From Spirogloea muscicola (Eukaryota; Streptophyta; Zygnematophyceae; Spirogloeales; Spirogloeaceae): a DNA stretch of 21,586 nt. Below are positions 365-20,933 of this stretch, in pieces. Where the stretch lies: assembly GCA_009602725.1 (NCBI GenBank), contig WELB01000416.1, positions 20,177 through 41,762 on the forward strand. The letters run 5' to 3'. The notes beneath the pieces were generated by a model that saw only the letters and a program-made list of their open reading frames with translations, had not been told where the DNA came from and ran no database searches. The position numbers and the translations under genes are program-made. The stretch's first letter is position 1. Each line of letters opens with the position of its first letter.

Positions 365-926
365 TGTACGCTTGACAGCCTTCTAGTCTGCAGCACGGGG
401 ATTGCAGAGAACATCCTGAATGAGTTGCTGTACACTGTGCAGCCAGCATGTTGTGCAGCGATTTTGGCGAATAACAAGCCATCCACATGTTTCTGCAACA
501 CGTGGCTTGGAAAGGCAGTAGGGCGCTCGCTCCCTCCACGCCAATGCAGTCAGCCATATTTGCGATGGGTTGTTGATTGGAGTTGGCCGTGGTTAAGATA
601 GCAAGCTGGCCAAGGAGGGTGGAGGGGAAGGGCGTCAATCGTCCAAGGCTAGGCATATGAGCAAACTTCAGCCTGTGAATGCATTATACCTGGCCATGGA
701 TGCCATTGCTAATGTAAGACGACATGTAAAGTGGCAGCTGCAGGGAGATGAAGCATGACTGGTCAAGCGTCTTCCAGCAACAGCTCCCAAAACACGTCGC
801 ATGTTTGGCATGGGCAGGTAGTGGCCGCGGAGGGGCGCATGAGGGTCGTCACGCTGCAGGCACTCAAAAGCTGCAACATTCCCGTCGAAACAGTTGGCAT
901 CCCGGGCACTCCGGCTTGCCCGCCAC
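365..926 (+). CDS. Copy A eight-cysteine (LTP/AAI-like) domain, two exons
   Basis: Exon 365-517 (51 codons) begins at the first cysteine and carries C1 to C6 (CTLDSLLVC, PACC, CFC). Exon 818-926 carries C7 and C8 (KSCNIP, TPACPP). Joined in phase 0 at gca|gtaggg and gggcag|GTA, the spacing is C-x7-C-x19-CC-x11-C-x-C-x25-C-x14-C, which fits the plant 8CM fold: four disulfides around helices, often a lipid-binding cavity. The C7 region 'CNIP' resembles the conserved C-terminal part of nonspecific LTPs. No stop or frame break lies within the domain even though the rest of copy A is damaged. The exon ends in phase 1, as in B and C. Confidence 0.75.
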
Positions 927-1217
927 GTGAGCCACTGGCTTTATGTTGTTTCAGCAACTAGCAATGCTCCACCATGCCCTCTCTGTGCCACTCCTTTTGC
1001 TTCATGGTTGCTCATGGGCACTGGGGTGTCGGCTGCTCCGTGCACTTGTGCAGCACCGCCGCGTCCAAGCTTGCACGTCCCGCCAAGCCCAGGCCTCAGG
1101 TGCGGCCCACTTATCTGAGCCTACCAATGCACTTGTCCAAATCATTACAACCTGGCCACAGTCAAATTGTGTGCCTTCTATTTGCTCCTTGAGCTTGCGC
1201 TTACAGATACCTTCAAG

Positions 1218-3763
1218 CGTGCTGCAGGGGCGAGCGAGATGCCCTGCTGCGAATCAGGGCCGCTGTGGCAGACCCGCAGGGCAACCTCACTGGCTGGTCG
1301 GCAGCCTATCCCGACCCCTGCAACTGGGTAGGAGTGACGTGCTCCAGAGCGGGCGGCCGCTTCGCTGTGACTACGCTGGACCTCATGGACCTGCGGCTGG
1401 AGGGCAAGCTGCCAGCTGAGGGCGGCCTTGGCAATCTCACACAGCTCGTGCGCCTCTACCTTGCACGTAACAACCTGACAGGGCCCATTCCCCCGGAGCT
1501 CGGCCGTTTGCAGCACGGTGCTCCACCTCGATGGCAACAACTTCACAGGCCCAATTCCTGACGAGCTTGGCAACTGCACTGACCTCAAGATCCTCGACAT
1601 CAACGGCAACTTGTTCGTGACTGGCATGGTACCGGCATCGCTTGGACGCCTCAAGCACCTCTGGTTCCTCTACCTTTCCCGGTGCAGCCTGACAGGGCCG
1701 CTGCCTCCGGAGCTAGCAGGAGCGAAGTCCTTGGAGGTGTTGGACATTGAGACGCGCACTATGCTGTCGCCCGGCCTCACGGGCCCCATCCCACCAGAGC
1801 TTGGCAGCCTGCCGCGCCTGAGGACGCTGCGGCTGCGGTACAACTCCTTGACGGGCCCCATACCAGCGGCTCTCAGCAACTGCACTTCACTGGTCATACT
1901 TGTGCTCGCAGGGAATCGACTACACGGCCATATCCCGCCCGAGCTCGGCCGTCTGTCAAAGTTGGCCTACCTTCACCTCTCAGACAACTTTCTGGAGGGC
2001 TCTCTTCCTGATGAGCTGGGCAACCTGTCATCGCTGTCCTGGCTGGCCATTGCCCGTGCTGGCTTGTCAGGGCGGATCCCCTCAAGCCTGGGCCGCTTGC
2101 AGCTGCTGTACAATGTGCTCCTGAGCGAAAATCGGCTAACTGGCGAGATCCCACCCGAGCTCAGTACAGCAAAGTCCTAGAGGCCATACTTGTGCATTTC
2201 AATAGGTAAGTTTAAGTGCCACCTGTCATCTCATTGGCCTGTCTGCATAGTGTTCGCCCCAGTCCACCTGCTTTGAGACTCTAGCATCAGCACTGGACTG
2301 CTGCAGCCAGCACAACCTTTTGAAATTGCTTGACACTGTCAATGTGCAACAGGCTCACGCGTCGCTATCCTCGCACTGCCTGCCAGGCTGACGGGAACGC
2401 TGCCGCGGGAGCTAGGGGCGATGAAGAAGCTGTTGACGCTCGATGTGCGGGGCAATCTCTTAGAAGGACCGATCCCTCCTGAGCTGGGCAATGCCACCAG
2501 ATTGAGCATCCTATCCCTATCTGGAAATCGTTTCACCGGCGGCATCCCTGTGGAGCTCGGACAGCTAGGCGACCTTAAGAGGCTGGAGCTCGCAGGCAAT
2601 CTACTGACAGGACCAATCCCGCCCAGCCTCGGCAACTGCACCAACCTGTTCCAGCTCAACGTCAGCTACAATGGGTGCTGTTCTTCAGCCTGGCCTGCTG
2701 GTTGTCCAGATCTGTAAGCGAGCCTCCTCTGGTGCTCGTGAAGCTGCTCTGACCACCCACATCCTGTGTTTGAATCGAAGGCAGTTTGGTGGGACCCATT
2801 CCCATGGAGCTTGGCAATATCCGCAATGCCTCTGTCATGGACATCTACTTGCCCAGCTTCAAACAGCCGAACGTCACAAAGCTGCAGTACATTGACATCA
2901 CAAGCAACGCCCTCAGCGGGCCATTGCCAGCTACTCTGGGGCGCCTGAGTGCCATGCAAGCATTCTACTTCAGCAGCAATCAGTTGACAGGCAGCATCCC
3001 ACCAGATATCAGCAACTGTTATCAGCTTCTTCAGCTGAATCTCTCACACAATAAGCTGAGTGGGCCACTGTGGCCAGGCTTGGGCCTGCTCACCAACCTC
3101 ACAAAAGTCGACCTCTCCAACAATGCATTCACTGGCTCCATCCCGTCCGAGCTGCACAGCCTCTCTGCTGCACAAACCCTGGACCTTGCTCACAACAGAT
3201 TTTCTGGCAATATTTCCCCAGAACTGGGCCTTCTGGTCAGTGTCACAAGGCTCGCGCTGGATAGCAACATTCTGGATGGTCCCATTCCGACAGAGCTTGG
3301 AAATATGAGCAGCCTTGAGGACCTCGACTTAAGCAACAATAAGGTCCGTGCAATGTCTGGTATGTGGTATGGACTTTGTCACTCATCTCTTGATTGTACA
3401 TTCTGATTGACATAACACCTACATCCGCTTGCTGTGCAGCTGACTGGCCCCATCCCCGCCACTCTGGGAGACCTCCCTCTGATCATCTTGAATGTCAGTC
3501 ACAACAAGATGAGTGGCAATCTGCCAGCAAGCCTTGGCCAGCTCCAGGTTCTCCAAGTGATGGACGTGTCAGTGAACAACCTGAGCGGACCAGTGCCACC
3601 CTCCTACACGTCTCTCTCCAAGCTCAAGTACTTCAATGCATCTTACAACGATCTCAGCGGAGTCGTGCCATTGGAGGGGCCCACAGCCCTTCGTCGTCGT
3701 GATGCCTACCTCGGGAACTCCAACATTTGCAACAGCACCAGATTTTGTCGATCGAGGCTCTGA
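1218..3763 (+). pseudogene. Copy A LRR ectodomain (LRRNT_2 plus LRRs), frame-broken
   Basis: The LRR cap reads GERDALL...ADPQGNL...CNWVGVTC, the usual LRRNT_2 pattern with paired cysteines. About 25 plant-specific LRRs (LxGxIPxELG) follow across exons 1218-2205, 2387-2674, 2785-3343 and 3440 onward, with the same island (VMDIYLPSFKQPNVTKLQY) before a late repeat as in B and C. The repeat near 1511-1520 lost about 5 nt, so the first frame ends at 1561. The downstream repeats are open in another frame to 2180, where TAG replaces the expected Leu-Glu. A third break lies after the terminal cysteine pair (ICNSTRFC). Confidence 0.8.
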
Positions 3764-4020
3764 CATTCCACCACCCACCTCAGCACCAGCTCCTCCAAAG
3801 CACAAAGACAGCAATAGCAACGTGGGGGTCATTCTTGGGTGCTCCTTGGGTGGGTCAGCTGCAATCATTGGCCTCCTCATCCTCTTCTGCTGGAAGTGGC
3901 GGCGGCACAGTCGAGATTTGGCAGCAACTTCTAAAAGCTTCGATGATGCAAAGGCCGCCACTGGCAATGTGATTCATTGTCAGAGACAGGATACAATCCT
4001 CACTTACGCTGAGATTCTTG

Positions 4021-5642
4021 ATGCAACTGATAACTTCGATAAGAAGCACGTCATTGGAGCTGGTGGCTTTGGCACAGTCTACAGGTACAGCTTTGTAGCT
4101 ACCAAGGTCTTGGACGCCATCTTGCTAAGTGTCGTCGCTGGAAGCTCGGTCTAAGTGCCACAGTGTACGAATCTGCCTGTTCCTTGTATTGCTTGCTGGT
4201 GTGAAATTGAAATGAATACAAGACATGCACAAGTTGCCCAGAGGTCGTCAATCAAGGGTAGATCTAATACCGATATCATGATCAATTACCTGCACAGAGC
4301 AACCCTCAAGGAGGGCTTGGAGGTAGCTGTGAAGAAATTGGAGGCCACCAGCTTGCAGGGGGAGAAGGAGTTTCTTGCTGAGGTCGCTACACTTGGTCGC
4401 ATCAAGCATAGACACCTGGTCAGTTTGCGTGGAGCTTATGTGGGTGCTCCTGGGGATCGGCAGTGGCTTCTCATTTACGACTTTGTTAATGGCGGAAACC
4501 TTGACAGTTACCTGCGGGCAGCTAGCAGCATGATGTCATCAACCACAGCGACAACGCACGAGGCCTCCAATCAGGAGATGCACCTTGCTCTTGGCGCTCA
4601 GGAACATACAGCTGAACAGCTGGCGGCAAGCGGGGTGCCAGTAGTGGAGGCAAAGTCCCTTCTCCATGATGCTGAAGAGCAAAAGCGGCGGTGGGATTTC
4701 AGCTGCAACTGGGCCACGCGGAAGCGGATTGCCATTGAGATCGCACATGGTCTAGCCTATTTGCACCACGGCTGCAGCCCGCCCATCATTCACCGGGATG
4801 TGAAGCCATCAAATGTTCTTTTAAACATCAATCTCAGAGTGCAACTGTCTGACTTTGGGCTGGCCCGGCAGATCACACTTGGCGATACTCACGTCTCTAC
4901 AGGCGTGGCAGGTAGATTACCTTGCCAGTGCTACGGAACCTGGGCAGCTATACAATTATCTTGTCAATTGTACTTTCGGTGATTGATCATCACTGCCCCA
5001 GGTCTGACATTCCCAGCATATCTGTACCGTGCACCACTCACTGCGAATCATTTGCTTGATCTGGCAGGCACAGTTGGCTACCTCGCCCCGGAGTATGCCT
5101 ACCAATTTAAAGTAAGCGAGAAGAGCGATGTCTACAGCTATGGCGTGGTGCTTCTCCAGCTCATAACAGGCTGTCGACCAACAGACATGGCCTTTCAAGA
5201 CTATGAAGGTGGCATTGTGGGGTGGACCACGGCAAAGCTTAGGGCAGGCCACAGTGCCCAACAGATCGCTGCACCGCAACTCGTTGTACCAGAAGCATCG
5301 GCTGCCGACATATGGCAGGACATCCTGGGGGTTATAAAGGTGGGCCTGCTATGCACAGCTACAGAGCCAAGCTCGCGCCCTACTATGGCTGAGACCCTTC
5401 ACCTGCTGGAGAACAAGGATGCAGTTGGGCTCAAACCCAGCCCCAACTGGCAGCTGAGTGCAAGCCCAAGCGCATACTCATCTGCTGCTGGCCCCGCCTC
5501 CCTTTCTGGTTCAAGTTTTTACAGCATCCTGCGAAGTACCTCAGAGTCTCAAAGCACCATTGATGTGAGCTTGCCATCCAACTTCAGTGAAAGAAGCATG
5601 GACAGCTCCGTCACACAAGCAGAGGTCCCATCGCGACTCTGA
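4021..5642 (+). CDS. Copy A protein kinase domain (RD-type receptor kinase)
   Basis: The kinase starts near [15 protein letters not shown] with glycine loop [10 protein letters not shown], and an intron interrupts the loop region (4085-4297, phase 2). It continues with catalytic Lys in VAVKKLE, alpha-C Glu in [17 protein letters not shown] at 4791, DFG at 4851-4859, a phase-1 intron in the activation segment (4912-5067), then [20 protein letters not shown] and the C-lobe Arg in SSRPTM. An insert rich in Ser, Ala, Glu and His (about 4520-4700) separates the N-lobe/hinge from alpha-E. The Ser-rich tail ends at TGA 5642. All catalytic residues are present, so this half would be an active kinase if it were translated in frame. 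Confidence 0.85.
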
Positions 5643-6402: not shown

Positions 6403-6440
6403 AAGGAAGAATGAGTCGACGGCAGAAGCGGTGAAAGAGG

Positions 6441-6955
<515 letters not shown>

Positions 6956-7501: not shown

Positions 7502-8189
7502 TGCACGCTGGAGAACGTGCTGGTGTGCTCCACGGCGGCGGGCGAGGACATCCTCAACGAGGCGCTGTACACGGTGCAGCCGGCGTGCTGCGCCGCCGTC
7601 CGCGCCAACACCCGCCCCGACAAGTGCCGCTGCATTCCCTGGTTCCCCCGCGCGGTAATCCGCCGCCATCGCTCTGACGAGCCATCAGCCTGCGCCTTCC
7701 TGGCCGCTAGATTGATATACTTGAATTACTACAACAACAGATCAGGCAAGTTTCTGCCATGTACTTCTGTACATCAATCTGTCCAAAGTACTGCCAACTA
7801 GAGCTTTTGCAAGTCTCTGGTATATGCAGTGTGTACGTTTCTTCTAGTTGCTGTATATGGCGCTATTGTGTCGACTATGCAAAAGACCACTCGAGTTTAG
7901 AGGCAGGATGTTTTCAGCCAAACAAAGGAGAACATCCAATAACTGCTGAGAAGTCACGTTGAAAAGCCTTCCTCTAGTAGCTCAGCGGTCGGAGCAAATG
8001 GCTGTTCTTTCATTGTGCGGCTAATGAAAGAGGGGCTGACGGCCTGCGCGCCCTCTGCACTTCCGGCCGCGCCGTCGCAGATGGCTGCCGCCGAGGGCTT
8101 GCCGCTGGCCACCACGTTGACGACCATCGCCAGCTGCAACATCTCCTTCCTCTCGCTCTACGTCTACGGAACGCCGTCCTGCCCTCCGC
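7502..8189 (+). CDS. Copy B eight-cysteine (LTP/AAI-like) domain, two exons
   Basis: Exon 7502-7654 holds CTLENVLVC, PACC and CRC. Exon 8081-8189 holds ASCNIS and TPSCPP. The cysteine spacing is identical to copies A and C, and the donor (gcg|gtaatc) and acceptor (gtcgcag|ATG) give phase 0. The second exon ends in phase 1 at c|gtcagt, which joins in frame to exon 8520 (gatgcag|CG). The 426-nt intron (7655-8080) carries a tRNA A-box-like sequence but no gene. The 330-nt intron 8190-8519 shows nothing else. The domain is intact and should fold like an LTP-type helical bundle, but LTP-like lipid binding is only inferred. Confidence 0.75.
7978..7996 (+). other. tRNA D-arm / A-box-like sequence in intron of copy B
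   Basis: The sequence tagctcagcggtcggagca matches the internal pol III A-box and D-arm pattern of tRNAs, with GCTC pairing to GAGC. No B-box (GGTTCGA type), acceptor stem or anticodon stem follows, so this is not a tRNA gene. The same element is at 15829-15847 in copy C, so it predates the duplication. It may be a decayed tRNA-derived SINE head. Confidence 0.4.
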
Positions 8190-8519: not shown

Positions 8520-11150
8520 CGTCGAACCGCACGGCCCCGGAGGTCGCATCCACACCCGGCCTCCGCGCGGAGCGCGATGCGCTGCTGCGCGTCAAGGCGG
8601 CGCTGGCGGACCCGCAGGGCAACCTCAGCACTGGGCTGCCAGCGCGCCCACTCCATGCAGCTGGAGCGGCGTGACGTGCGGCGCGGCGGCGGGCCGGGCC
8701 GGCGCCGCCGTGGTCAAGCTGGACCTCATGGACATGGGGTTGGCGGGGGAGCTGCCGGCAGCCGCCGGCCTGGGCGACCTCGGCGAACTCGTGCGCCTCT
8801 ACCTGTCGCGGAACGCTCTGACAGGAGCCATCCCCGGTGGCGAGCTCGCGCGGCTGCGCCACCTGCAGGTCCTGCACCTCGACGGCAACAACTTCACGGG
8901 GCCGCTGCCCGACGAGCTGGGCGACTGCCAGAGCCTCCGGGTGCTCGATGTCAACTCCAACCCCCGCTTGACGGGCGCCGTGCCATCGTCGCTCGGCCGC
9001 CTCAAGCGCCTCTACTTTCTCTACCTCTCCCACAGTGGCCTGAGCGGGCCGCTGCCACCGGAGCTCGGCAACGCCACAGCGCTCACGACCCTTGACGTCG
9101 AGCTTTTGCCGCCCAGCCTCACGGGGCCCATCCCGGCAGAGCTCGGCCAGCTCAGCCGCCTGCGCACCCTGCGCCTGCGCTACAATTCGCTCACAGGGCC
9201 CATCCCAGCGATGCTCGCCAATTGCAGCAAGCTCGTCGTGCTTGCGCTCGCCGGCAACCGGCTCACGGGTATCATCCCGCCAGAGCTCGGCCGCTTGCAG
9301 AAGCTCGGCTACTTGCACCTCTCGGACAACCCGCTCACTGGCACGCTCCCCGACGAGCTCGGCAATCTCACGTCGGTGTCCTGGCTCGCCATTGCCCGCA
9401 CCAACATCTCCGGGCGCATCCCGGCCAGCCTCAGCCGCCTGCCGCTGCTCCACAACCTCGTTGTGGCAGGCAACCAGGTGTCAGGTGGCATCCCAGCGGA
9501 GCTCGGCCGGTGCAAATATCTTGAGAGCATCCACGCCCAGTGTAACCAGTAAGGCTCATTTGACTCACTCCGCTCAAGCTTTCCTGCCCTGGAGCATGAC
9601 TGTGGCTGAACCCCTCTGCAGCGGACTCAATGCACGAGCATGAGTGACGCAGGCTGGACGGGACGCTGCCCAAGGAGCTCGGTGATGTACGGACACTGCT
9701 GACTATCGAGCTGCGTGGCAACATGCTGACGGGCACGATTCCGCCGGAGATAGCACGGGCTTCCAAGCTGCATATACTCTCCCTCTCTGGCAACCAGCTA
9801 AGTGGCGGCATCCCGCCCGAGTTGGGGCGGCTTGCCAACCTGACACGACTGCAGCTCGCCAGTAATCGCCTCAGCGGTGTCATCCCCCCCAGCCTTGGAA
9901 ACTGCTCCAACCTCTACCAACTCAACGTCAGCAGCAACGGGTGAGCGACCAATGTTGCTGCTGCCACCAGGACCACTGACATTGGCGCAACCAAAACTAG
10001 CGCCCTCAAGAGTTGCTGCAGCCAAAAATCCAAGCAAGGTGGGCCCATTTTGCTGGCTCGGCCCCATCGGATATCATCGTTCTAACTAGCATAAGGTGTG
10101 GTGGCTCTGGTGGAGCGAGCAGTCTTACGGGGCCCATCCCGCAGGAGCTCAGCGGCATCCGAGCCAGCCCAGTGACAGAGGAGTTCTACTTCCCAGGCCT
10201 CAACCAGCCACTGGTCACCAAGCTGCAGTACATTGACATCAGCAACAACCGGCTGACTGGGCAGCTACCACCAAGCCTCGGGCGCCTGGCAGGCATGCAG
10301 GCTTTCTATTTTGGTGGCAACGGGCTTCAAGGTGGCATCCCGCCGTCCTTCCTCAACTGCTCCCGGCTGCAGCAGCTAAACCTCTCTGGCAATCGCTTCA
10401 GCGGGCCCCTGTGGCCAGGCCTCGGCATGCTCAGCAACCTCACGGCCATCGTCCTGTCCGGCAACGGCTTCAATGGCAGCATACCACGGGAATTACGACA
10501 CGTGCTAGGCTTGCAGATCCTGGACCTGGCATACAACCGCTTCTCAAGCAGCATACCTCCAGAATTTGGCGAGTTGACGAGTGTGACGGACTTCACGCTG
10601 GCCGGCAATGGCCTCCAGGGCCCTATCCCGCCAGAGCTCGGGCTCATGAGCAGCTTACAGAGCCTTGACCTGAGCAGCAATGAGGTGTGCCAAACACGTT
10701 CGCTGAGTCCGGCTGTCAGAGACCACTTCTTCGAGTGACTTTCACTTAGAGAATCTGGGCTTCAGTTCTGAATCTCAATCCATCTCTAGTTCAGACTAGA
10801 GTCAGAGATTACGCATCACAGACAACTTTTTCTTGATGCCAGAATGCCTGCTCCTGCTTTGCACAGCTGAACAGCACCATCCCTCAGGAGCTTGCTGATG
10901 TACACGTCCAGAATCTGAATCTCAGCCAGAACATGCTCAGCGGTAGCCTGCCAGACAGCCTGGGCAAGCAGCAGGTCCTCCAGTCCCTGGACGTGTCCAA
11001 TAACAACCTCTCCGGACCGGTGCCGGCGTCATACTCGTTGCTTCCCATGCTGCGCTTCTTCAATGCCTCCTACAATGACCTGAGCGGGGCCTTGCCCAAC
11101 TCAGGCTCGGCCGCGCTGCGGAATCCTGATGCCTACCTAGGCAATGCCAA
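8520..11150 (+). pseudogene. Copy B LRR ectodomain, frameshifted in the cap
   Basis: The LRRNT_2 cap ([18 protein letters not shown]) is followed by a 1-nt deletion at 8629/8630. The rest of the cap (CSWSGVTC) and about 26 LRRs stay open in the shifted frame through exons 8520-9548, 9653-9940, 10123-10684 and 10867 onward. The island ([19 protein letters not shown]) precedes LRR 17, and the array ends in a cysteine pair (LCGIGATC). Downstream repeats look well conserved with C, which suggests the lesion is young. Confidence 0.85.
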
Positions 11151-11411
11151 TTTATGTGGCATTGGTGCGACCTGCGCATCGTCACCGCCAGGCAACAGCG
11201 GGCGTCACCTAGGGCTTATGATTGGGTGTTTTCTGGGCGGTGCTGCGGCAGTCATCGGTGGCCTCCTCCTCTTTTGCTGGATTGCTTTTCGGCCTAGCAG
11301 TGGCAGGGAGACGATCTTGTCCTATGAGACGGCAACGACTGCGTCTGAAAATCCGAAGAAGCCTGGCTTTTCCAGCGAGAGTGGGCATTTCATTGTCTAC
11401 CATAAGTCAGA

Positions 11412-13088
11412 GAGCAGCTTTACACTCGAAGACATCCTTGAGGCTACCAACAATTTCAGCAGGGAGCACGCCGTCGGCGTCGGCGGTTTTGGCACTGTCT
11501 ACAAGTACCCCAGCCATAGCCCTAGGCCTTGCCTAAAGAGACACATCAAGTAGAATGCTAGACTCTTGATGTTGTCGTCTACTCCTGGTCAGCTTGACAT
11601 GTAACCTGCATAAGGGGCTCCATGCGGAAGAACACTTCAAAAGAACTTCACCCACGGCTCATTGGTGACATGATGGCTGCTGTCTGATGCAGGGCGGTTT
11701 TGAAGGACGGAACGGAACTGGCTGTGAAGAAGATGGCTTGCACCAGCCTGCAAGGAGAGAAGGAGTTCTTAGCCGAGGTTGCGACCCTGGGGCGCATCAA
11801 GCATCGCCACCTGGCCAGTCTGCGAGGCGCATACGCTGGGGCCGTGGGAGCTCGGGAGTGGCTGCTCATATACAGCTTCGTAAGGGGCGGCAACCTGGAT
11901 AATTACTTGAGATATAGTAGCTCCGTCACCTCACAAGGGGGCAGCTCTGAAGCAGCCAATCTTGAAGGGGGCCAGAAAGGTCCCCTGCATATTGTTGCAG
12001 AGCTTGCAGTTGAGGAGGTCTGCATCAAAGATAGCGGAGATATGAGGAGAACATCATTAGCTGGTGTCGTGGACGCCAACCAGCAGGAACGGCGGCAGAG
12101 GTTCCGCACGGATTGGCCCACACGGAAGAGGATTGCACTCGAGGCGGCTCATGGACTTGCCTATTTGCACCATGGCTGCAGACCATCGATTATACACCGT
12201 GATGTGAAGCCGTCCAACATTCTCTTGGATCTGCAGCTTTCAGTTCAGGTGTCCGATTTTGGATTGGCCAAGATAGTCAATCCTGGTGATACCCATGTAT
12301 CAACTGCAGTTGCCGGTCAGCGCCCACTTCCCCTAAAAGCATGCAGCCCACAATATAGCAACCCTTCAACCCTTCTCAGACTGCAGAGCACAGAATGAGA
12401 ACCCTATTGTCTTGCTCCCAAGGCGACAATGACAGGGAGACAACTATAGTCTCTGCTTTCACATGAGCTCTGTCCTACTTACTGTCTCATTGCTTTTGAC
12501 TTCTAGCTGAATGTGCCTCTTGTCTTCAACATGTCCCCAGGAACTGTGGGCTATTTGGCTCCCGAATATGCATATCTCTCCAGAGTCAGCGAGAAAAGCG
12601 ATGTCTACAGCTACGGGGTGGTGTTGCTGCAGCTCATTACTGGGCGACGTCCTACCGATTCCGCCTTTCAGGACTACGAGGGTGGCATTGTAGGATACAC
12701 TGGCGCTGCACTTCAAGCAGGCCAAACAATACAGCACATTGCTGCGCCCCAATTAAGTATACCTGAAGAATCTTCTGAACAGACCTGACAAGATATCTTG
12801 GCGGCCTTGAAGGTGAGCCTCATCTGCACTGCCCGAGAACCGAGTGCGCGGCCCACCATGGCTGAGGTGATCCATCTATTGGACAACCTCCACTCAGTAT
12901 CAGGCAGTGCAGGGCTGAGTACTGACTGGAAGCTGAATGGCAGCGTCACCTCAAAGTCAGAAACTCAATCCTTTGGTGATCTAACCTCAGTGTCCAGTCA
13001 CAGCTCATATAGCAATCCAAGTGCACACTCTCTACCTCAGTCTTCTGGAGGGATGTCCTCTGACATTGCTCCGGACAGTGCTAATTAA
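11412..13088 (+). pseudogene. Copy B kinase domain with premature stop
   Basis: Glycine loop [16 protein letters not shown] lysine, FLAEVATLG glutamate, HRDVKPSN (12195), DFG (12255-12263), GYLAPEY and [13 protein letters not shown] are all present. TGA at 12786-12788 then cuts the domain before the region holding the C-lobe Arg (SARPTM), which most eukaryotic kinases need for a stable fold. The sequence downstream stays open to TAA at 13088 and still matches copy C, so the stop is recent. The insert between hinge and alpha-E is kept (about 11905-12105). Confidence 0.85.
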
Positions 13089-13540: not shown

Positions 13541-14622
13541 AGGGGGAAGGAGAAAGTCTACTCAGTCGCCTATTAATTGCCATGCAGCAGTGTTGCAGTG
13601 AGTACGTCACTACTGATACAATTAGCTACTATCTGCATAACAAAGCCAGCTGGCAGTGTTAGTCACCTTGACTACAAGATTCAAGGACTCTCCAGTCCAC
13701 GCGATTCGTTCAACTTGTCGTGGGCCGGGTCATTCCTTAGTGTAGCGTTCGGTCCCTAACAGGCAGCTTAGAGCCGGATGCGTCCTTCTTATGATTGAGT
13801 GCTTGGTGATCCGGGGCACAACCACCCGCCACGAGGAAGCGCTCCGGCACAGCGGAAGACTTGCCCTGGGGCGCTGCCGCCAGGTAGCGGCTCCACCTCC
13901 TGGGCACGCGCTGCAGACTTGCCCCTGGCGGAACGCCGCCAAGGTCTCCGCAGCAGAGCCGGCAACGAGCCGCGCGCGGCAGCGGTCTACAGCAGCAGGC
14001 AGCCGCAGGGTTGCGCCTCTGTCAAAGCTTCACAGAGTCCCCGGCCTCCGGTCGGGCTCTCTCTGCTCCGTGGCATAGTGCTCCCCGTGCCACCCTCCCT
14101 CCAGGGTGTCTGGGGAGCCACGAGCTGTTCCCAGCAGGCGCCATGGCGCCGAGCATGGCCGCGGCAGAGCATGCCGCCAAGCATGGCCGAGGCCGGCATG
14201 GCTGAGCAAGGCCGCCGGGGGCGTCCGGGCCCACGCATGCCGCCGAGCTTGTCTGGGCCGAGCATGACGGGAGCGTGCGAGGCCACCCCGACGAGCCTGG
14301 ACGGGACGACAACAGCACGAGTGCCAGGACGGCTCGTTCCGTCCAGCAGGAACGGCCAAATGAGTACCATGTAAGCGTTGACAACACTGTTTGGCGCTCA
14401 CAAATTTGAGAACGTGACACAACTGATGAGAGCATCCACACTGTACGAACCCAATCATCTGGCTGCTCCTAATGTTGATCCTGTCGATCACGTTCAGCAG
14501 CCTCCGCTTCTTCTTTCCTCCACTCAGAGCCTCAACTGGACGTTTCCCTTTGCTCCGGAGGGGCAAAAGAGGACCAGCAAGTCGCCCTCGTTTCGACGGT
14601 TCGGACGCCGCTCGAGAAAGAA
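13541..14622. other. Unassigned GC-rich spacer between copies B and C
   Basis: About 1.1 kb with no counterpart in the A-B spacer. Several open frames occur on both strands (for example 13799-14374 + and 14030-14752 -), but they are low-complexity (Arg, Ala, Pro, Gly, Ser), lack domains and have no conserved start. The part at 14140-14275 has repeated gcatgg-type words (gagcatgg, aagcatgg, ggcatggc). I do not see terminal inverted repeats, LTR ends or transposase motifs. Confidence 0.5.
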
Positions 14623-14689
14623 GAGCTGCAGGCGGAGCTGCAGCCTGGGATGAGCCCGGCCCACGCACCGCCCTCGATCCGCCCGCATC

Positions 14690-15185
14690 CCCGAGGCGCT
14701 CCTGGCCGCCCGATGGGAGGAGCCTCAGCCGTCCGATTACGCCGGCCCCCATCCACGTGGGTTTGGCAGCATCTCAATCGGGCGGCGGGCAAGCCCATTG
14801 CAGGAGCGGCCCCCGATCCGCCGGAGATATGGCAGCCGTTCGTGCGGGTCGCAGGTGCGGCGGCGGAAAGGGAGGCCGCCGGTAAGGGCCCCCCTCCTTG
14901 GCGGCGGCCATGGGGAGGCGTCGGATAAGCAGATCGATCCGACCGCGGCGAGGCGCTTTCTGAGAAGCTCGGATCGGCAGGCCCGAGGGAGGCGCTGGTA
15001 ACAGCTTTTCGTGTCCGTGGGGAGGGGGGAGGAGGGGGGGCCGGTGGGGCGAGGCGCCCATGGGATTATTTATGCCCGGGCCCACGGGGGGGCTGGGAGG
15101 CGGTGGGCCTACGAGCTAGCGGTTCCCGCCGCCGCTGCCGCCGCCGCCGGAGCCGCCGCGGAATCCGGCGCGGCGCGCGGCGGCC
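14690..15185 (+). promoter_or_regulatory. 5' flank of copy C
   Basis: GC-rich flank shared with copy B. The sequence 'gattatttatg' near 15063 is AT-rich in a GC-rich setting and lies about 120 nt before the ATG at 15186, so it could serve as a TATA-like element. No experimental or clear consensus support. Confidence 0.25.
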
Positions 15186-15278
15186 ATGGCGCTGCTCCTG
15201 GCTCTNGCCGCCGCCACCAACGCTGCCGCCGCCGACGCTGCCGCCACCGCTGCCGCCGCCGCCACCGCCGGTGATGCC
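15186..15278 (+). CDS. Candidate leader exon of copy C
   Basis: The ATG sits in a good context (ggccATGGCG) and opens MALLLAL followed by Ala-rich sequence, plausible as a secretory signal. The base at 15206 is N. In the frame as given, a phase-0 donor at gcc|gtcctt (15279) joins the 8CM exon at 15326. A stronger donor (ccg|gtgatg, 15271) is aligned with B's gtaatg but would need the Pro-rich frame (PPPPTLPPPTLPPP), reachable from this ATG only if the N hides an indel. The end coordinate is therefore uncertain. Confidence 0.35.
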
Positions 15279-15325: not shown

Positions 15326-16047
15326 TGCACGCTGGAGAACGTGCTGCTGTGCTCCACGGCGGGCGGCGAGGACATCCTCAACGAGGTGCTGTACACCGTG
15401 CAGCCGGCGTGCTGCGCCGCCATCATCGCCAATGCCCGGCCCGACAAGTGCCGCTGCAACCCGTGGATCCTCCGCGAGGTGATCCGCCGCCATTGCCCTG
15501 ACGAGCCGTTAGCCTGCGCCTGTAAACACACCGCCTTCAATCACCTCGCTCTAAATACATCCGCGATGTGTTCGTAGTATATCCAAGAAGAGGTCTGGCA
15601 AGTTTCTGCTATACACAGCGATGGGTCTAGTGTACTTTCAACAAGAGGTTTTGCGAGTTTCTGCTATACACGTTAAAGACACTTCCGTGAGTAGCTATGA
15701 TTGGCGCTATTTATTGCATTACCTATGCATGAGACCACTCGAGTTAAGAGACAGGATGGTTTTCAGCAAAACACGGTGAACTGTCTCCAAGAACTGTCAA
15801 TCAAATACGTTACAACCCCTATCTCTAGTAGCTCAGCGGTTAGAGCAAATGGCTGTTCTTGCTTCTTTCACTGTGCGGCTAGTGGAAGAGCGGCTGACGG
15901 CCTGCGCGCCCACTGCGCTTCCGGCCGCGCCGTCGCAGATGACCGCCGCCGAGGGCTTGCCGCAGGCCACCACGCTGGGCGCCATCGCCAGCTGCAACAT
16001 CCCCTTCCTCTCGCTCGGCATATACGGCACGCCGTCCTGCCCACCCC
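15326..16047 (+). CDS. Copy C eight-cysteine (LTP/AAI-like) domain, two exons
   Basis: Exon 15326-15478 carries [13 protein letters not shown] and CRC; exon 15939-16047 carries ASCNIP and TPSCPP. The spacing C-x7-C-x19-CC-x11-C-x-C-x25-C-x14-C is that of the 8CM superfamily (LTPs, 2S albumins, alpha-amylase inhibitors). The intron between them (460 nt, 15479-15938) joins in phase 0. The second exon ends ccc c|gtcagt (phase 1) and joins gtgcag|CG at 16362, giving PSNRTAPEV as the linker to the LRR cap. The C-x-C has Arg in the middle instead of the Leu common in LTPs. Confidence 0.78.
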
Positions 16048-19000
16048 GTCAGTGCCCCCTGTCTCCCTCTCCCCTCAGCTCATCTGACTTTCTACTGCTG
16101 ACACGAGGGTACTAAGAGCGCCCTGCCTGCCTAGCCAGTGGCTCACTATATAGTCATGAAGCACCCTCTGTGTGCACTTGACTGGCATTTGCAGCCGCTC
16201 TACTGATATCAGCACCCGCAGTCTTCCTTTTCTCGTCCTACACGAAGAACTAATGCTGCGCTTGCGACTCTGCGCATCCTCGCTTCCTGTGGCGACGCTT
16301 TGGTTTGCCGGCGTCTGACCGGGACCTGCTGGGGCTCTGGCCGGCGTGCATTGTGGTGCAGCGTCGAACCGCACGGCCCCTGAGGTCACATCCACGCCCG
16401 GCCTCCGTGCGGAGCGCGATGCGCTGCTGCGCGTCAAGGGGGCGCTGGCGGACCCGCAGGGCAACCTCAGCGACTGGGCTGCCAGCGCGCCCACTCCATG
16501 CAGCTGGAGCGGCGTGACGTGCGGCGCGGCGGCGGGCCGGGCAGGCGCCGCCGTGGTCAAGCTGGACCTCATGGACATGAAGCTGGCCGGGGAGCTGCCA
16601 GCAGCCGCCGGCCTGGGCGATCTTGGCGAGCTCGTGCGCCTCTACCTGTCGCGGAACGCTCTGACAGGAGCCATCCCCGGCGGCGAGCTCGCGCGGCTGC
16701 GCCGCCTCCAGGTCCTGCACCTCGACGGCAACAACTTCACGGGGCCGCTGCCCGACGAGCTGGGCGACTGCCAGAGCCTCCGGGTGCTCGACGTCAACTC
16801 CAACGCCCGCTTGACAGGCGCCGTGCCATCGTCGCTCGGCCGCCTCAAGCGCCTCTACTTTCTCTACCTCTCCCACAGTGGCCTGAGCGGGCCGCTGCCA
16901 CCGGAGCTCGGCAATGCCACAGCGCTCACGACCCTTGACGTCGAGCTTCTGTCGCCCGGCCTCACGGGGCCCATCCCGGCAGAGCTCGGCCAGCTCAGCC
17001 GCCTGCGCACCCTGCGCCTGCGCTACAACTCGCTCACAGGGCCCATCCCGGCAACGCTCGCCAATTGCAGCGAGCTCGTCTCGCTTGCGCTCGCTGGCAA
17101 CCGGCTCACCGGTGTCATCCCGCCAGAGCTCGGCCGCTTGCAAAAGCTCGGCTACTTGCACCTCTCGGACAACCCGCTCACTGGCACGCTCCCCGATGAG
17201 CTCGGCAATCTCACGTCGGTGTCCTGGCTCGCCATTGCCCGCACCAACATCTCCGGGCGCATCCCGGCCAGCCTCAGCCGCCTGCCGCTGCTCCACAACC
17301 TCATCGTGGGAGGCAACCAGCTGTCAGGTGGCATCCCAGCGGAGCTAGGCCGCTGCAAGTCTCTTGAGAGCATTCACGCTCAAAATAATCGGTAAGGCTC
17401 ACTTGACCGCTCAGCTCAAGCCATCCTGCCCTGGAGCATGATTGTGGCTGACGTCCCTCTGCGGCCGACTCAAAGCACGAGCATGAGTGACGCAGGCTGG
17501 ACGGGACGCTGCCCAAGGAGCTCGGTGATGTACGGACGCTGCTGACGATCGAGCTGCGTGGCAACATGCTGACGGGCACGATTCCGCCGGAGATAGCACG
17601 GGCTTCCAAGCTGCATATACTCTCCCTCTCTGGCAACAAGCTAAGTGGCGGCATCCCGCCCGAGTTGGGGCAGCTTGTCAACCTGACACGACTGCACCTC
17701 GCCGGCAACCGCCTCAGTGGTGTCATCCCCCCCAGCCTTGGAAACTGCTCGAACCTCTTCCAACTCAACGTCAGCAGCAACCGGTGAGCGATCAATGTTG
17801 CTGCTGCCACTAGGACCACTGGCAGTGGCGCAACTAAAACTAGCACCCTCCAGAGTTGCTGCAGCCATAACAAGTCAAGTGGGCCCCATCTTTGCTGGCT
17901 CGGTGCCGTCGGACATCGTCGTTCTGACTAGAATATGGCATGGTGCCTCTGGTGGAGCGAGCAGTATTACGGGGCCCATACCGCAGGAGCTCAGCGGCAT
18001 CCGGGCCAGCCCGGTGACAGAGGAGTTCTACATCCCGGGCTTCGACCAGCCACTGGTCACCAAGCTGCAGTACATTGACTTCAGCAACAACCGGCTGACT
18101 GGGCAGCTACCACCAAGCCTCGGGCGCCTGGCAGGCATGCAGGCTTTCTACTTTAGTGGCAACCGGCTTCAAGGTGGCATCCCGTCGTCCTTCGTCAACT
18201 GCTCCCGGCTGCAGCAGCTGGACCTCTCTAGCAACAGCTTCAGCGGGCACCTGTGGCCAGGCCTCGGCATGCTCACAAACCTCACGGCCGTCGTCCTGTT
18301 CAGCAACGGCTTCAATGGCAGCATACCAAGGCAACTGCGACACATGCAAGGCTTGCAGATCCTGGACCTGGCATACAACCGCTTCTCAGGCAGCATACCT
18401 CCAGAGTTTGGCGAGCTGACAAGTGTGACGGACTTCACGCTGGCAGGCAATGGCCTCCAGGGCCCCATCCCGCCAGAGCTGGGGCTCATGAGCAGCTTAC
18501 AGAGCCTTGACCTGAGCAGCAACGAGGTGTGCCAAACACGTTCGCCGAGTCCGGCTGCCAGAGACCTCTTCTTTGAGTGACGTCCATTCAGAGAATCTGG
18601 GCTTCAGTTCTGCACCACAATGCATCTCTGCCGCGGACTAGAGTCAGAGAACACGCATCACAGACAACTTTTTCTGATGCCAGATTGCCTGCTCCTAATT
18701 TGCACAGCTGACCAGCACCATCCCTCAGGAGCTTGCTGATGTACACGTCCAGAATCTGAATCTCAGCCACAACATGCTCAGCGGCAGCCTGCCAGACAGC
18801 CTGGGCAAGCAGCAGGTCCTCCAGTCCCTGGACGTGTCCTATAATAACCTCTCCGGACCGGTGCCGGCGTCGTACTCGTCGCTCCCCATGCTGCGCTTCT
18901 TCAATGCCTCCTACAATAATCTGAGTGGCGCCTTGCCCAACTCAGGCTCGGCCGCGCTGCTGAATCCTGATGCCTACCTAGGCAATGCCAATTTATGCGG

Positions 19001-20933
19001 CACTGGTGCGACCTGCGCATCGTCTCCGTCAGGCCACAGTGAGCGTCACCTAGGGCTTATAATCGGGTGTTCAGTGGGCGGTGCTGCGGCAGTCATTGGG
19101 GGCCTCCTTCTCTTTTGCTGGATTGCTTTTCGGCCTAGGAATGGCAAGCAAACGATCATGTCCTATCAGTCGGCTACAATTGACGCAGAGAATCAGAAGA
19201 AGCCTGGGCTTTCCAGCGAGAGTGGGCATCTGATAGTCTATCACAAGTCAGATAGCAGCTTCACACTTGAAGACATCCTTGAGGCTACCAACAACTTTGA
19301 CAGGGAACACGCCGTTGGCGTCGGCGGTTTTGGCACTGTCTACAAGTACACCCGCCACAGCCCTAGGCCTTGCCTAGGGAAAAATCAACTAGAATGCTGG
19401 ACTCTAGATGTTGTCCTCTACTCCTGGTCAGCTTGACATGCAACCTGCATGCATAAGGGGCTCCATGCGGAAGAACACTTTCAAAGAATGTTACCCGCTG
19501 CTCATTGATGATAGGATGGCTGCTGTCTGATGCAGGGCGGTTTTGAAGGACGGCACGGAACTGGCTGTGAAGAAGATGGCTTGCACCAGCCTGCAAGGAG
19601 AGAAGGAGTTCTTAGCCGAGGTTGCGACCTTGGGGCGCATCAAGCATCGCCACCTGGCCAGCCTGCGAGGCGCGTACGCTGGGGCCGTGGGAGCTCGGGA
19701 GTGGCTGCTCATATACAATTTCGTAAGGGGCGGCAACCTGGAGAGTTACTTGAGAGATAGTAGTAGCTCTGTCACCTCACAAGCAGGCAGCTCTGAAGCA
19801 GCCAGTCATGAAAGGGGCCACACTGGTCCTCCGCATACTCTTGCAGAGCTTGGAGCTGAAAATGTCTGCATGGCAGACAGCGGAGAAATGAGGATAAAAT
19901 CGTCAGTGAGTGGCTTTGACCCCGACGAACAGGAACGGCGGCAAAGGTTCCGCACTGACTGGCCCACAAGGAAGAGGATTGCACTCGAGGCGGCTCATGG
20001 ACTTGCCTATTTGCACCATGGCTGCAGGCCATCAATCATACACCGTGATGTGAAGCCGTCCAACATTCTCCTGGATCTGCAGCTTTCAGCTCAGGTGTCC
20101 GATTTTGGATTGGCCAAGATAGTTAATCCTGGTGATACCCATGTATCGACTGCAGTTGCCGGTCAGTGCTCATTTCCCTCAACAGCATGCAGCCCACAAA
20201 TCAGCAATCCTTCAAGCCTTTCTTAGATTGCTGACCACAAATGAGGATCCTTCTTATATTGCTGTCCAGGCGACAACCACAGGGAGACGGCCATAGCCGT
20301 CTCTGCTTTCACATGAGCTCTGTCGTACTTGCTGTCTCATTGCTTTTGACCTTTAGCTGAATGTGCCTCTTGTCTTGAACAGGAACTGTGGGCTATTTGG
20401 CTCCCGAATATGCATACCTCTCCAGAGTCAGCGAGAAGAGCGACGTCTACAGCTATGGGGTGGTGCTGCTGCAGCTCATTACGGGGCGACGTCCTACCGA
20501 TTCCATCTTTCAGGACTACGAGGGTGGCATTGTAGGTTACACTGGCGCTGCACTTCAAGCAGGCCAAAGTATACAGCAGATTGCTGCGCCCCAATTTAGA
20601 ATACCTGAAGACTCTGCTGAACAGACCTGGCAAGACATTTTGGCGGCCTTGAAGGTGGGCCTCATCTGCACTGCCCGCGAACCGAGTGCGCGGCCCACCA
20701 TGACTGAGGTGATTCATCTACTGGACAGCCACCTATTATCAGGCATTTCAGGATTGAGCACTGACTGGCAGCTGAACAGCAGCGTCACCTCAAAGTCAGA
20801 AACTCAATCCTTTAGTGGTCTAACCTCAATGTCCAGTAGCTCATTTAGCATTCCAAGTGCACACTCTCTACCTCAGTCTGCTGGAGGGATGTCCTCTGAC
20901 ATTGCTCCGGACAGTGCTCATCACAGCATGTAA
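15326..20933 (+). CDS. Receptor copy C: intact 8CM-LRR-receptor-like kinase
   Basis: Eight exons, all GT-AG and in frame: 15326-15478, 15939-16047, 16362-17391, 17496-17783, 17965-18526, 18708-19345, 19536-20161 and 20383-20933 (TAA). They total 3957 nt, giving 1318 residues counted from the first 8CM cysteine. Order by residue: 8CM 1-86, linker, LRRNT_2 from about 110, about 26 LRRs with an island after LRR 16, cysteine pair LCGTGATC, transmembrane helix about 826-853 followed by basic residues, kinase about 900-1250, Ser-rich tail. This predicts a single-pass plasma-membrane receptor with an extracellular LTP-like module. No lesion is seen, unlike A and B. The ligand is unknown. The gene could instead be two transcripts (LTP-like and LRR kinase), but conserved in-frame phases argue for one. 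Confidence 0.82.
15829..15847 (+). other. tRNA D-arm / A-box-like sequence in intron of copy C
   Basis: The sequence tagctcagcggttagagca is an exact-looking tRNA A-box/D-arm (GCTC pairs with GAGC). Downstream sequence does not fold into anticodon and T arms and no B-box is seen, so no tRNA is called. Homologous to 7978-7996. Confidence 0.4.
16362..19030 (+). CDS. Copy C LRR ectodomain
   Basis: LRRNT_2 cap: [18 protein letters not shown], then CSWSGVTC. Counting by eye gives about 26 repeats of roughly 24 residues with the plant-specific LxGxIPxELG consensus. LRR 16 ([11 protein letters not shown]) is followed by a roughly 20-residue island ([16 protein letters not shown]) and then LRR 17 ([16 protein letters not shown]). 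The array ends with LCGTGATC, a common closing cysteine pair. Three introns (17392-17495, 17784-17964, 18527-18707) all fall at the same place in a repeat, between N-x and L-x-G. Many NxS/T sites (for example NCS, NLT) suggest glycosylation. Overall similarity is to LRR receptor kinases of the large plant classes; the island resembles those in subfamily X members, a tentative comparison. Confidence 0.88.
19250..20933 (+). CDS. Copy C protein kinase domain (RD-type)
   Basis: The motifs run in order: [13 protein letters not shown], glycine loop [10 protein letters not shown] (19314-19345), catalytic Lys at 19570-19572, alpha-C Glu near 19620, HRDVKPSN from 20041, DFG 20101-20109, GYLAPEY near 20390-20410, [20 protein letters not shown] and SARPTM. 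The Arg before the catalytic Asp makes it an RD kinase, usually regulated by activation-loop phosphorylation. From catalytic Lys to HRD is about 157 residues, some 60 more than usual, because of a Ser/Glu-rich insert between YLR and DWPTRKRI. Introns interrupt the glycine-loop region (phase 2) and the activation segment (phase 1). The tail is Ser-rich. Confidence 0.92.

Follow-up and report, generated by a model that had tools for sequence, protein, structure and literature searches.

An eight-cysteine module in probable in-frame fusion with leucine-rich repeat receptor kinases of Spirogloea muscicola

A stretch of 21,586 nucleotides from Spirogloea muscicola (Streptophyta; Zygnematophyceae; GenBank assembly GCA_009602725.1, contig WELB01000416.1, positions 20,177 to 41,762 of the forward strand), referred to below as the window, carries three tandem copies, A, B and C, of an arrangement in which two short cysteine-rich exons precede the exons of a leucine-rich repeat (LRR) receptor kinase. 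Plant proteins with an eight-cysteine module (8CM) are normally small and separate. Do the two exons, then, belong to the kinase that follows them or to a gene of their own, and is the module that they encode a lipid-transfer protein (LTP)? The answer to the first question is, very probably, that this is one family of LRR receptor kinases with an N-terminal, two-exon, eight-cysteine module fused in frame. The second question gets a narrower answer, namely, that the module appears to be LTP-like by the order of its cysteines alone.

Copy C and the gene family

Copy C lies on the plus strand, as do the exons of A and B and the block at 14619..15092 described below, and comprises eight exons (15326-20933) separated by introns that are all of the GT-AG type, with an open frame of 1318 residues and a stop codon, the same count that an earlier note on this DNA had obtained by splicing two module exons in frame, in phase 0 and then in phase 1, into an LRR kinase. 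Exon 1 (15326..15478; 51 residues), between the acceptor CAG/TGC and the phase 0 donor GAG/GTGATC (the slash marks the exon boundary), encodes cysteines 1-6 of the module, and exon 2 (15939..16047; 36 residues), between the phase 0 acceptor CAG/ATG and the phase 1 donor C/GTCAGT, encodes cysteines 7-8. Exon 3 (16362..17391) supplies a short linker, the LRRNT_2 cap and the first block of LRRs; its reading frame, followed back from the cap to the nearest stop codon, contains no ATG. Further LRRs are encoded by exons 4 (17496..17783) and 5 (17965..18526); exon 6 (18708..19345) holds the last LRRs, the juxtamembrane part and the start of the kinase, along with a hydrophobic stretch between LRRs and kinase that was recognized as a membrane span by eye rather than by a predictor; exon 7 (19536..20161) continues the kinase with what we take to be the HRD (RD type) and DFG motifs, also picked out by eye; and exon 8 (20383..20933) encodes the end of the kinase, a Ser-rich tail and the stop codon. 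A Pfam search of the spliced frame found all three parts of the LRRNT_2-LRR-kinase order read in the earlier note (LRRNT_2, E 2e-12; LRR_8, E 2.5e-53; kinase PF07714, E 2.2e-35), giving a domain order of eight-cysteine module, LRRNT_2, LRRs and kinase. The best PDB matches of the kinase, which is of the plant RLK/Pelle kind, were BRI1 (E 1.5e-70) and then BAK1.

The arrangement extends beyond the window. Searching the 153 Mb genome, which contains the window, with exon 1 of copy C yielded matches at 10 places, and exon 1 of H and that of A each found the same 10 and none other: A, B and C in the window, D (contig C121), E and G (C115), H (C61), I (C284), J (C145) and F (C186). The LRR exon and the kinase exons follow the module in A, B and C and, within the fetched pieces, in D, E, G, H, I and J, whereas at place F no LRR or kinase exons were found after the module. 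The nine module genes thus counted fall into three diverged groups on six contigs. Place F (G000:C186:269843-270028) consists of 321 bases, exon 1 among them, that match copy E at 99% identity; it stops at an isolated N beside coding sequence resembling, by eye, GTP cyclohydrolase, and is probably an assembly patch.

What these nine genes share is, above all, the layout of the module. The cysteine pattern of copy C, C-X7-C-X19-CC-X11-CXC-X25-C-X14-C, split between exon 1 (six cysteines) and exon 2 (two), retains all eight cysteines in every gene, and these are among the 23 invariant of 87 columns (hypergeometric 8e-6). Throughout, exon 1 encodes 51 residues (50 in H, I and J) and ends with a phase 0 donor, and exon 2 encodes 36 residues plus one base and ends with a phase 1 donor; intron 1 is 93-460 bases long, and intron 2, noncoding in appearance, 267-331 bases. 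The exon order, cysteine spacing and in-frame phases that had been noticed in the three tandem copies are, accordingly, the same in A (module exons at 365..517 and 818..926) and B (7502..7654 and 8081..8189). This constancy of layout is accompanied by considerable divergence of sequence: exon 1 of H is 44-50% identical to the other groups, and exon 1 of A is 39-44% identical to the H-I-J group and 60-65% to the C group. The exon-1 cysteine pattern exceeds chance: scanning 101,158 non-N bases of overlapping loci, where some places are counted twice, gave 16 matches, 13 of which are the 10 known family places (F included) and three other cysteine-rich sequence, and when those bases were shuffled 20 times, 18 rounds produced no match, one a single match and one two.

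Searches with the other exons converge on the same genes. The kinase-exon search, with the best 150 of 402 candidates scored, listed 119 matches, among which the nine top places (E <= 7.7e-56; the next, 1.4e-23) are exactly the nine with the module. Among the 77 matches of the LRR-exon search (best 122 of 529 candidates scored), the top consists of the same nine and one fragment. As far as these searches reach, the module is confined to one discrete kinase clade, no member of which was found to lack it; no free-standing copy of the module was present among the matches found in this genome. In 8 kb fetched around the nearest kinase outside the clade (C49), the only outside kinase examined, about 3 kb of it N, no module-like pattern was found. 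The fragment (C416:4693-5211, minus strand) lies upstream of the window on the same contig, is 86% identical to the LRR exon of copy C and contains an in-frame stop.

The nature of the module

The earlier note had described a full 8CM with LTP-type spacing, and part of that description stands. The module shares the order C-Xn-C-Xn-CC-Xn-CXC-Xn-C-Xn-C with the plant non-specific LTPs (nsLTPs) and other 8CM proteins (AAI; PF00234, PF14368, PF14547), its C1-C2 spacing of 7 is that of rice nsLTP2 (1l6h), and, by eye, it resembles known 8CMs in the Pro just before CC and, in H, I and J, in the CG after cysteine 7. The C2-C3 spacing departs from the LTP type, being 19 in the module versus 13-15 in 1l6h, 2rkn, 1afh and 1hyp (by eye).

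Several results weigh against taking this resemblance for kinship. No LTP/AAI profile reached the curated Pfam cut-off in any of the nine members, the best sub-threshold score being 14.3 bits for Tryp_alpha_amyl in copy B against a cut-off of 21.7, whereas three known 8CM proteins, run as a control, passed; a failure of this profile, which the earlier note had set in advance as evidence against its claim, is thus what all nine modules give at curated cut-offs. A PDB profile search with the nine modules returned no match at E up to 10; for comparison, the type II LTPs in the PDB are weak matches even to DIR1 (E 0.02 and 0.05). When the module profile was aligned by hhalign with seven known 8CMs (E 0.014, probability 3.2 percent), the score was reached by none of 60 full column shuffles and by 6 of 60 shuffles in which the cysteines were held fixed, which suggests that the likeness to known 8CMs hardly exceeds the cysteines. 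An AlphaFold model of exon 1 alone, built from three rows, the window copies, and of low confidence (mean predicted local distance difference test score 62.8, predicted template modelling score 0.36), shows one helix and strands and no helix bundle; 8CM proteins have a fold of four to five helices with a hydrophobic cavity. Searching for the PF14368 family produced no match in this genome, nor in 14 control genomes, and counts for neither side. Exon 2 of copy A (818-926) has a sub-threshold Pfam match to ABCA11_C (PF25158; E 9e-4), as does that of G (E 7e-3).

Taken by themselves, these results would favor a lineage-specific, disulfide-rich N-terminal extension that stabilizes or caps the LRR domain, is unrelated to LTPs and has come upon the eight-cysteine pattern convergently. 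The profile test is, however, a weak one here because sequence searches reportedly fail to pick up green-algal nsLTPs: the passages of PMC9832785 that bear on this point describe no BLASTP hits at E = 10 from land-plant baits, recognition by Pfam of only half of the green-algal candidates, and a group, AI, with a longer C2-C3 stretch. Considered together with the complete cysteine order, the C1-C2 spacing, the Pro and the CG described above, this leaves convergence a serious contender that falls somewhat short of being the probable answer.

A slightly less likely alternative, drawn by analogy and hence tentative, is that the module serves as a built-in co-receptor of the LORELEI/LLG type or a lipid chaperone of the DIR1 type, handing a peptide or a lipid to the LRR domain in cis. 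The linker between module and LRR cap is short, 18 residues in C and 7 in H (by eye; in H, via alignment to C), and would set the module beside the cap. The LORELEI/LLG proteins are GPI (glycosylphosphatidylinositol)-anchored, eight-cysteine proteins that assist receptor kinases of a different class, the CrRLK1L kinases; DIR1, for its part, is a lipid-binding protein of defence signalling. However, the cysteine order of the LLG proteins differs, they are not known to have the CXC of the 8CM, and the present evidence is fit equally well by a structural cap.

One gene or two, and the state of the copies

It is quite improbable that the cysteine exons form a separate gene for a small secreted protein that was copied together with, and upstream of, each receptor kinase, even though the 267-331 noncoding-looking bases of intron 2 separate the module from the LRR exon and 8CM proteins, as described in the relevant part of PMC9832785, are normally small and stand alone. 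In all nine copies, cysteine 8 is followed by a donor in the same phase rather than by a stop codon; no stop shared among the copies lies past the donor (by eye), where the sequence differs between groups; and the linkage is kept in all three groups, across the six contigs. The LRR exon, for its part, seems ill-equipped to begin a secreted protein: an ATG between the preceding stop and the cap is absent in seven of the nine (H and I start MAAPLRRA), and inspection by eye, rather than by a signal-peptide program, found no signal peptide in the exon's own frame in any copy. The phases, the donor after cysteine 8 and the missing secretory start together bear out the earlier reading of the two cysteine exons as part of the receptor gene. 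An assembly artefact behind the join was considered and rejected: not one of the nine copies has an N run from exon 1 to exon 3, so that the join is not an assembly seam.

Exons and introns of the paralogues diverge to different extents. Between C and D, exons 1-3 are 94%, 94% and 95% identical and align gapless, compared with 78% and 65% for the introns, with 50 and 19 gap columns; between C and B, the exons are 89%, 85% and 96% identical versus 74% and 65% for the introns. The contrast is small in A-G, H-I and H-J (exons 92-97%, introns 87-94%), and of the two C-E introns, one is divergent (51%) and one similar (91%). In six of seven close pairs, module and LRR exon differ little in synonymous divergence (dS), the former having 0.68-1.28 times the value of the latter (in H-I, for example, 0.227 and 0.242), as expected of one gene duplicated whole. 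For the module, the ratio of nonsynonymous to synonymous divergence (dN/dS) lies at 0.10-0.34 in all seven of these pairs, values that neutral simulations reached in 0 of 397 runs for C-E, 1 of 393 for H-J, 0 of 398 for H-I, 2 of 355 for A-G and 15 of 399 for C-D; the pairs D-E and I-J were left out of the simulations, and the ratios of distant pairs (for example, 0.73 for C-H), being near saturation, were left out as evidence. The pair A-G stands apart, with a dS of 0.099 in the module and 0.051 in the LRR exon and an LRR dN/dS of 0.82 (100 codons), which fits decay of copy A.

Several observations count against the fusion or against its general validity. The exon joins in all copies were read from genomic DNA alone. 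Introns of A-C and C-H align at just 44-47%, and therefore their homology is judged by position and phase only. The acceptor of exon 3 in A and G was picked among weak candidates and is unlike that of the other groups, and the exon-3 junction is less certain in these two copies. In A, the LRR and kinase exons span 1194..5642 and the joined frame stops at residue 209, and in B, they span 8520..13088 with a stop at residue 138, in both cases in exon 3; the frameshifts are, by eye against the other copies, small deletions in the LRR exon. Furthermore, dN/dS of B with C, D and E is relaxed (0.42-0.85). Thus, the recurrence claimed for the three tandem copies holds for the module exons and their phases, and not for intact receptors in A and B, which look like disrupted copies or local assembly errors; G, the paralogue of A on C115, is open where A is frameshifted. 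Nor was a conserved signal-peptide exon found upstream of exon 1 in the copies.

As to this last point, C (from 14472) and G do show signal-peptide-like frames, which were rejected since E does not keep that of C, nor A that of G. Within about 1 kb upstream of the module there are long runs of N in A, D, G, H, I and J and isolated N in B, C and E (in C, at 15206..15206, 120 bases upstream of exon 1), and a signal-peptide exon may lie within such unassembled sequence. A block of 474 bases (14619..15092) recurs near B, C and E only, at 77-82% identity, with D not judged, its N starting 131 bases upstream; this block may be a promoter or a 5' leader, and no signal-peptide exon was recognized in it. 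A long (AG)n tract (6435-6905) lies upstream of copy B, and several other copies are preceded by CT repeats or N runs.

That all copies are decaying relics with a module out of use, as the frameshifts in A and B, the relaxed ratios of the B pairs, the A-G LRR-exon ratio and the fragmentary place F might suggest, is very improbable, given that in each of the nine genes the joined frame enters the LRR exon without a stop, that in seven of them (C, D, E, G, H, I and J) it remains open along the whole stretch of exon 3 covered, about 1 kb, and given how rarely neutral simulations reached the low ratios of the module.

Proposed function and comparison with known systems

If the in-frame fusion is accepted, a scenario for the receptor can be outlined. 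An upstream exon would supply the signal peptide, and the module would fold as a disulfide-tied, 8CM-like bundle beside the LRR N-cap, where it could form part of the ligand-binding face and recognize a ligand or a partner. What would most likely be bound, between module and LRR, is a small hydrophobic molecule or a partner peptide, the former guessed by analogy because of 8CM biology. LRR receptor kinases signal via ligand-driven co-receptor pairing and kinase activation, and downstream signalling might proceed here in the same manner, through a co-receptor and the RD kinase. The chances of a role of the module in ligand recognition appear evenly balanced; that the ligand is a lipid is rather doubtful. 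More doubtful still is the boldest version, in which a lineage of streptophyte receptors has incorporated an LTP-type, lipid-holding module, and the same polypeptide both takes up a hydrophobic signal and delivers it to the LRR domain that it carries. If true, this would amount to the chaperone-plus-receptor pairs of land plants in cis form, and would give LRR kinases a way of perceiving lipids that arose earlier than, or in parallel with, the land-plant systems.

Ectodomain shuffling is how plants made new receptors, and a family of nine genes, largely under constraint, makes it testable whether 8CM-like modules serve as receptor parts and whether an LRR kinase senses hydrophobic ligands via such a module. 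In the literature searched, largely open-access and without supplementary tables, no 8CM-LRR kinase order was found; nor does one appear in the passages covered of PMC11096116, which treats domain combinations in Zygnematophyceae, and of a review of receptor kinases (PMC10868138). Of the earlier proposal of a candidate new receptor class, then, what survives is a domain order undescribed in the literature searched and present in nine genes, and what does not is the status of a separate class: "new class" is too strong for what is, in the single genome where it has been seen, a receptor of known kind to which a module has been added. The green-algal nsLTP survey, according to the portion of PMC9832785 that gives its selection rules, excluded proteins above 60 kDa, which suggests that surveys dropping large proteins would miss such modules.

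With the land-plant LRR receptor kinases the family shares LRRNT_2, the LRRs and the RD kinase, BRI1 being the nearest solved kinase, by PDB match and not by tree; the difference is the eight-cysteine module ahead of the LRR cap, which, to our knowledge, BRI1 lacks. The nsLTPs are proteins of 6-10 kDa, whereas the module considered here is part of a receptor of 1318 residues. The green-algal nsLTPs, as far as they are characterized in the pertinent passages of PMC9832785, likewise have an 8CM with lengthened spacing that land-plant baits recognize poorly and genes with multiple introns, and are free-standing, unlike the fused module. LORELEI/LLG is likewise an eight-cysteine extracellular part that works with a receptor kinase: there, it is a separate, GPI-anchored protein, whereas in the Spirogloea family the module is, in all probability, joined in frame to the kinase itself.

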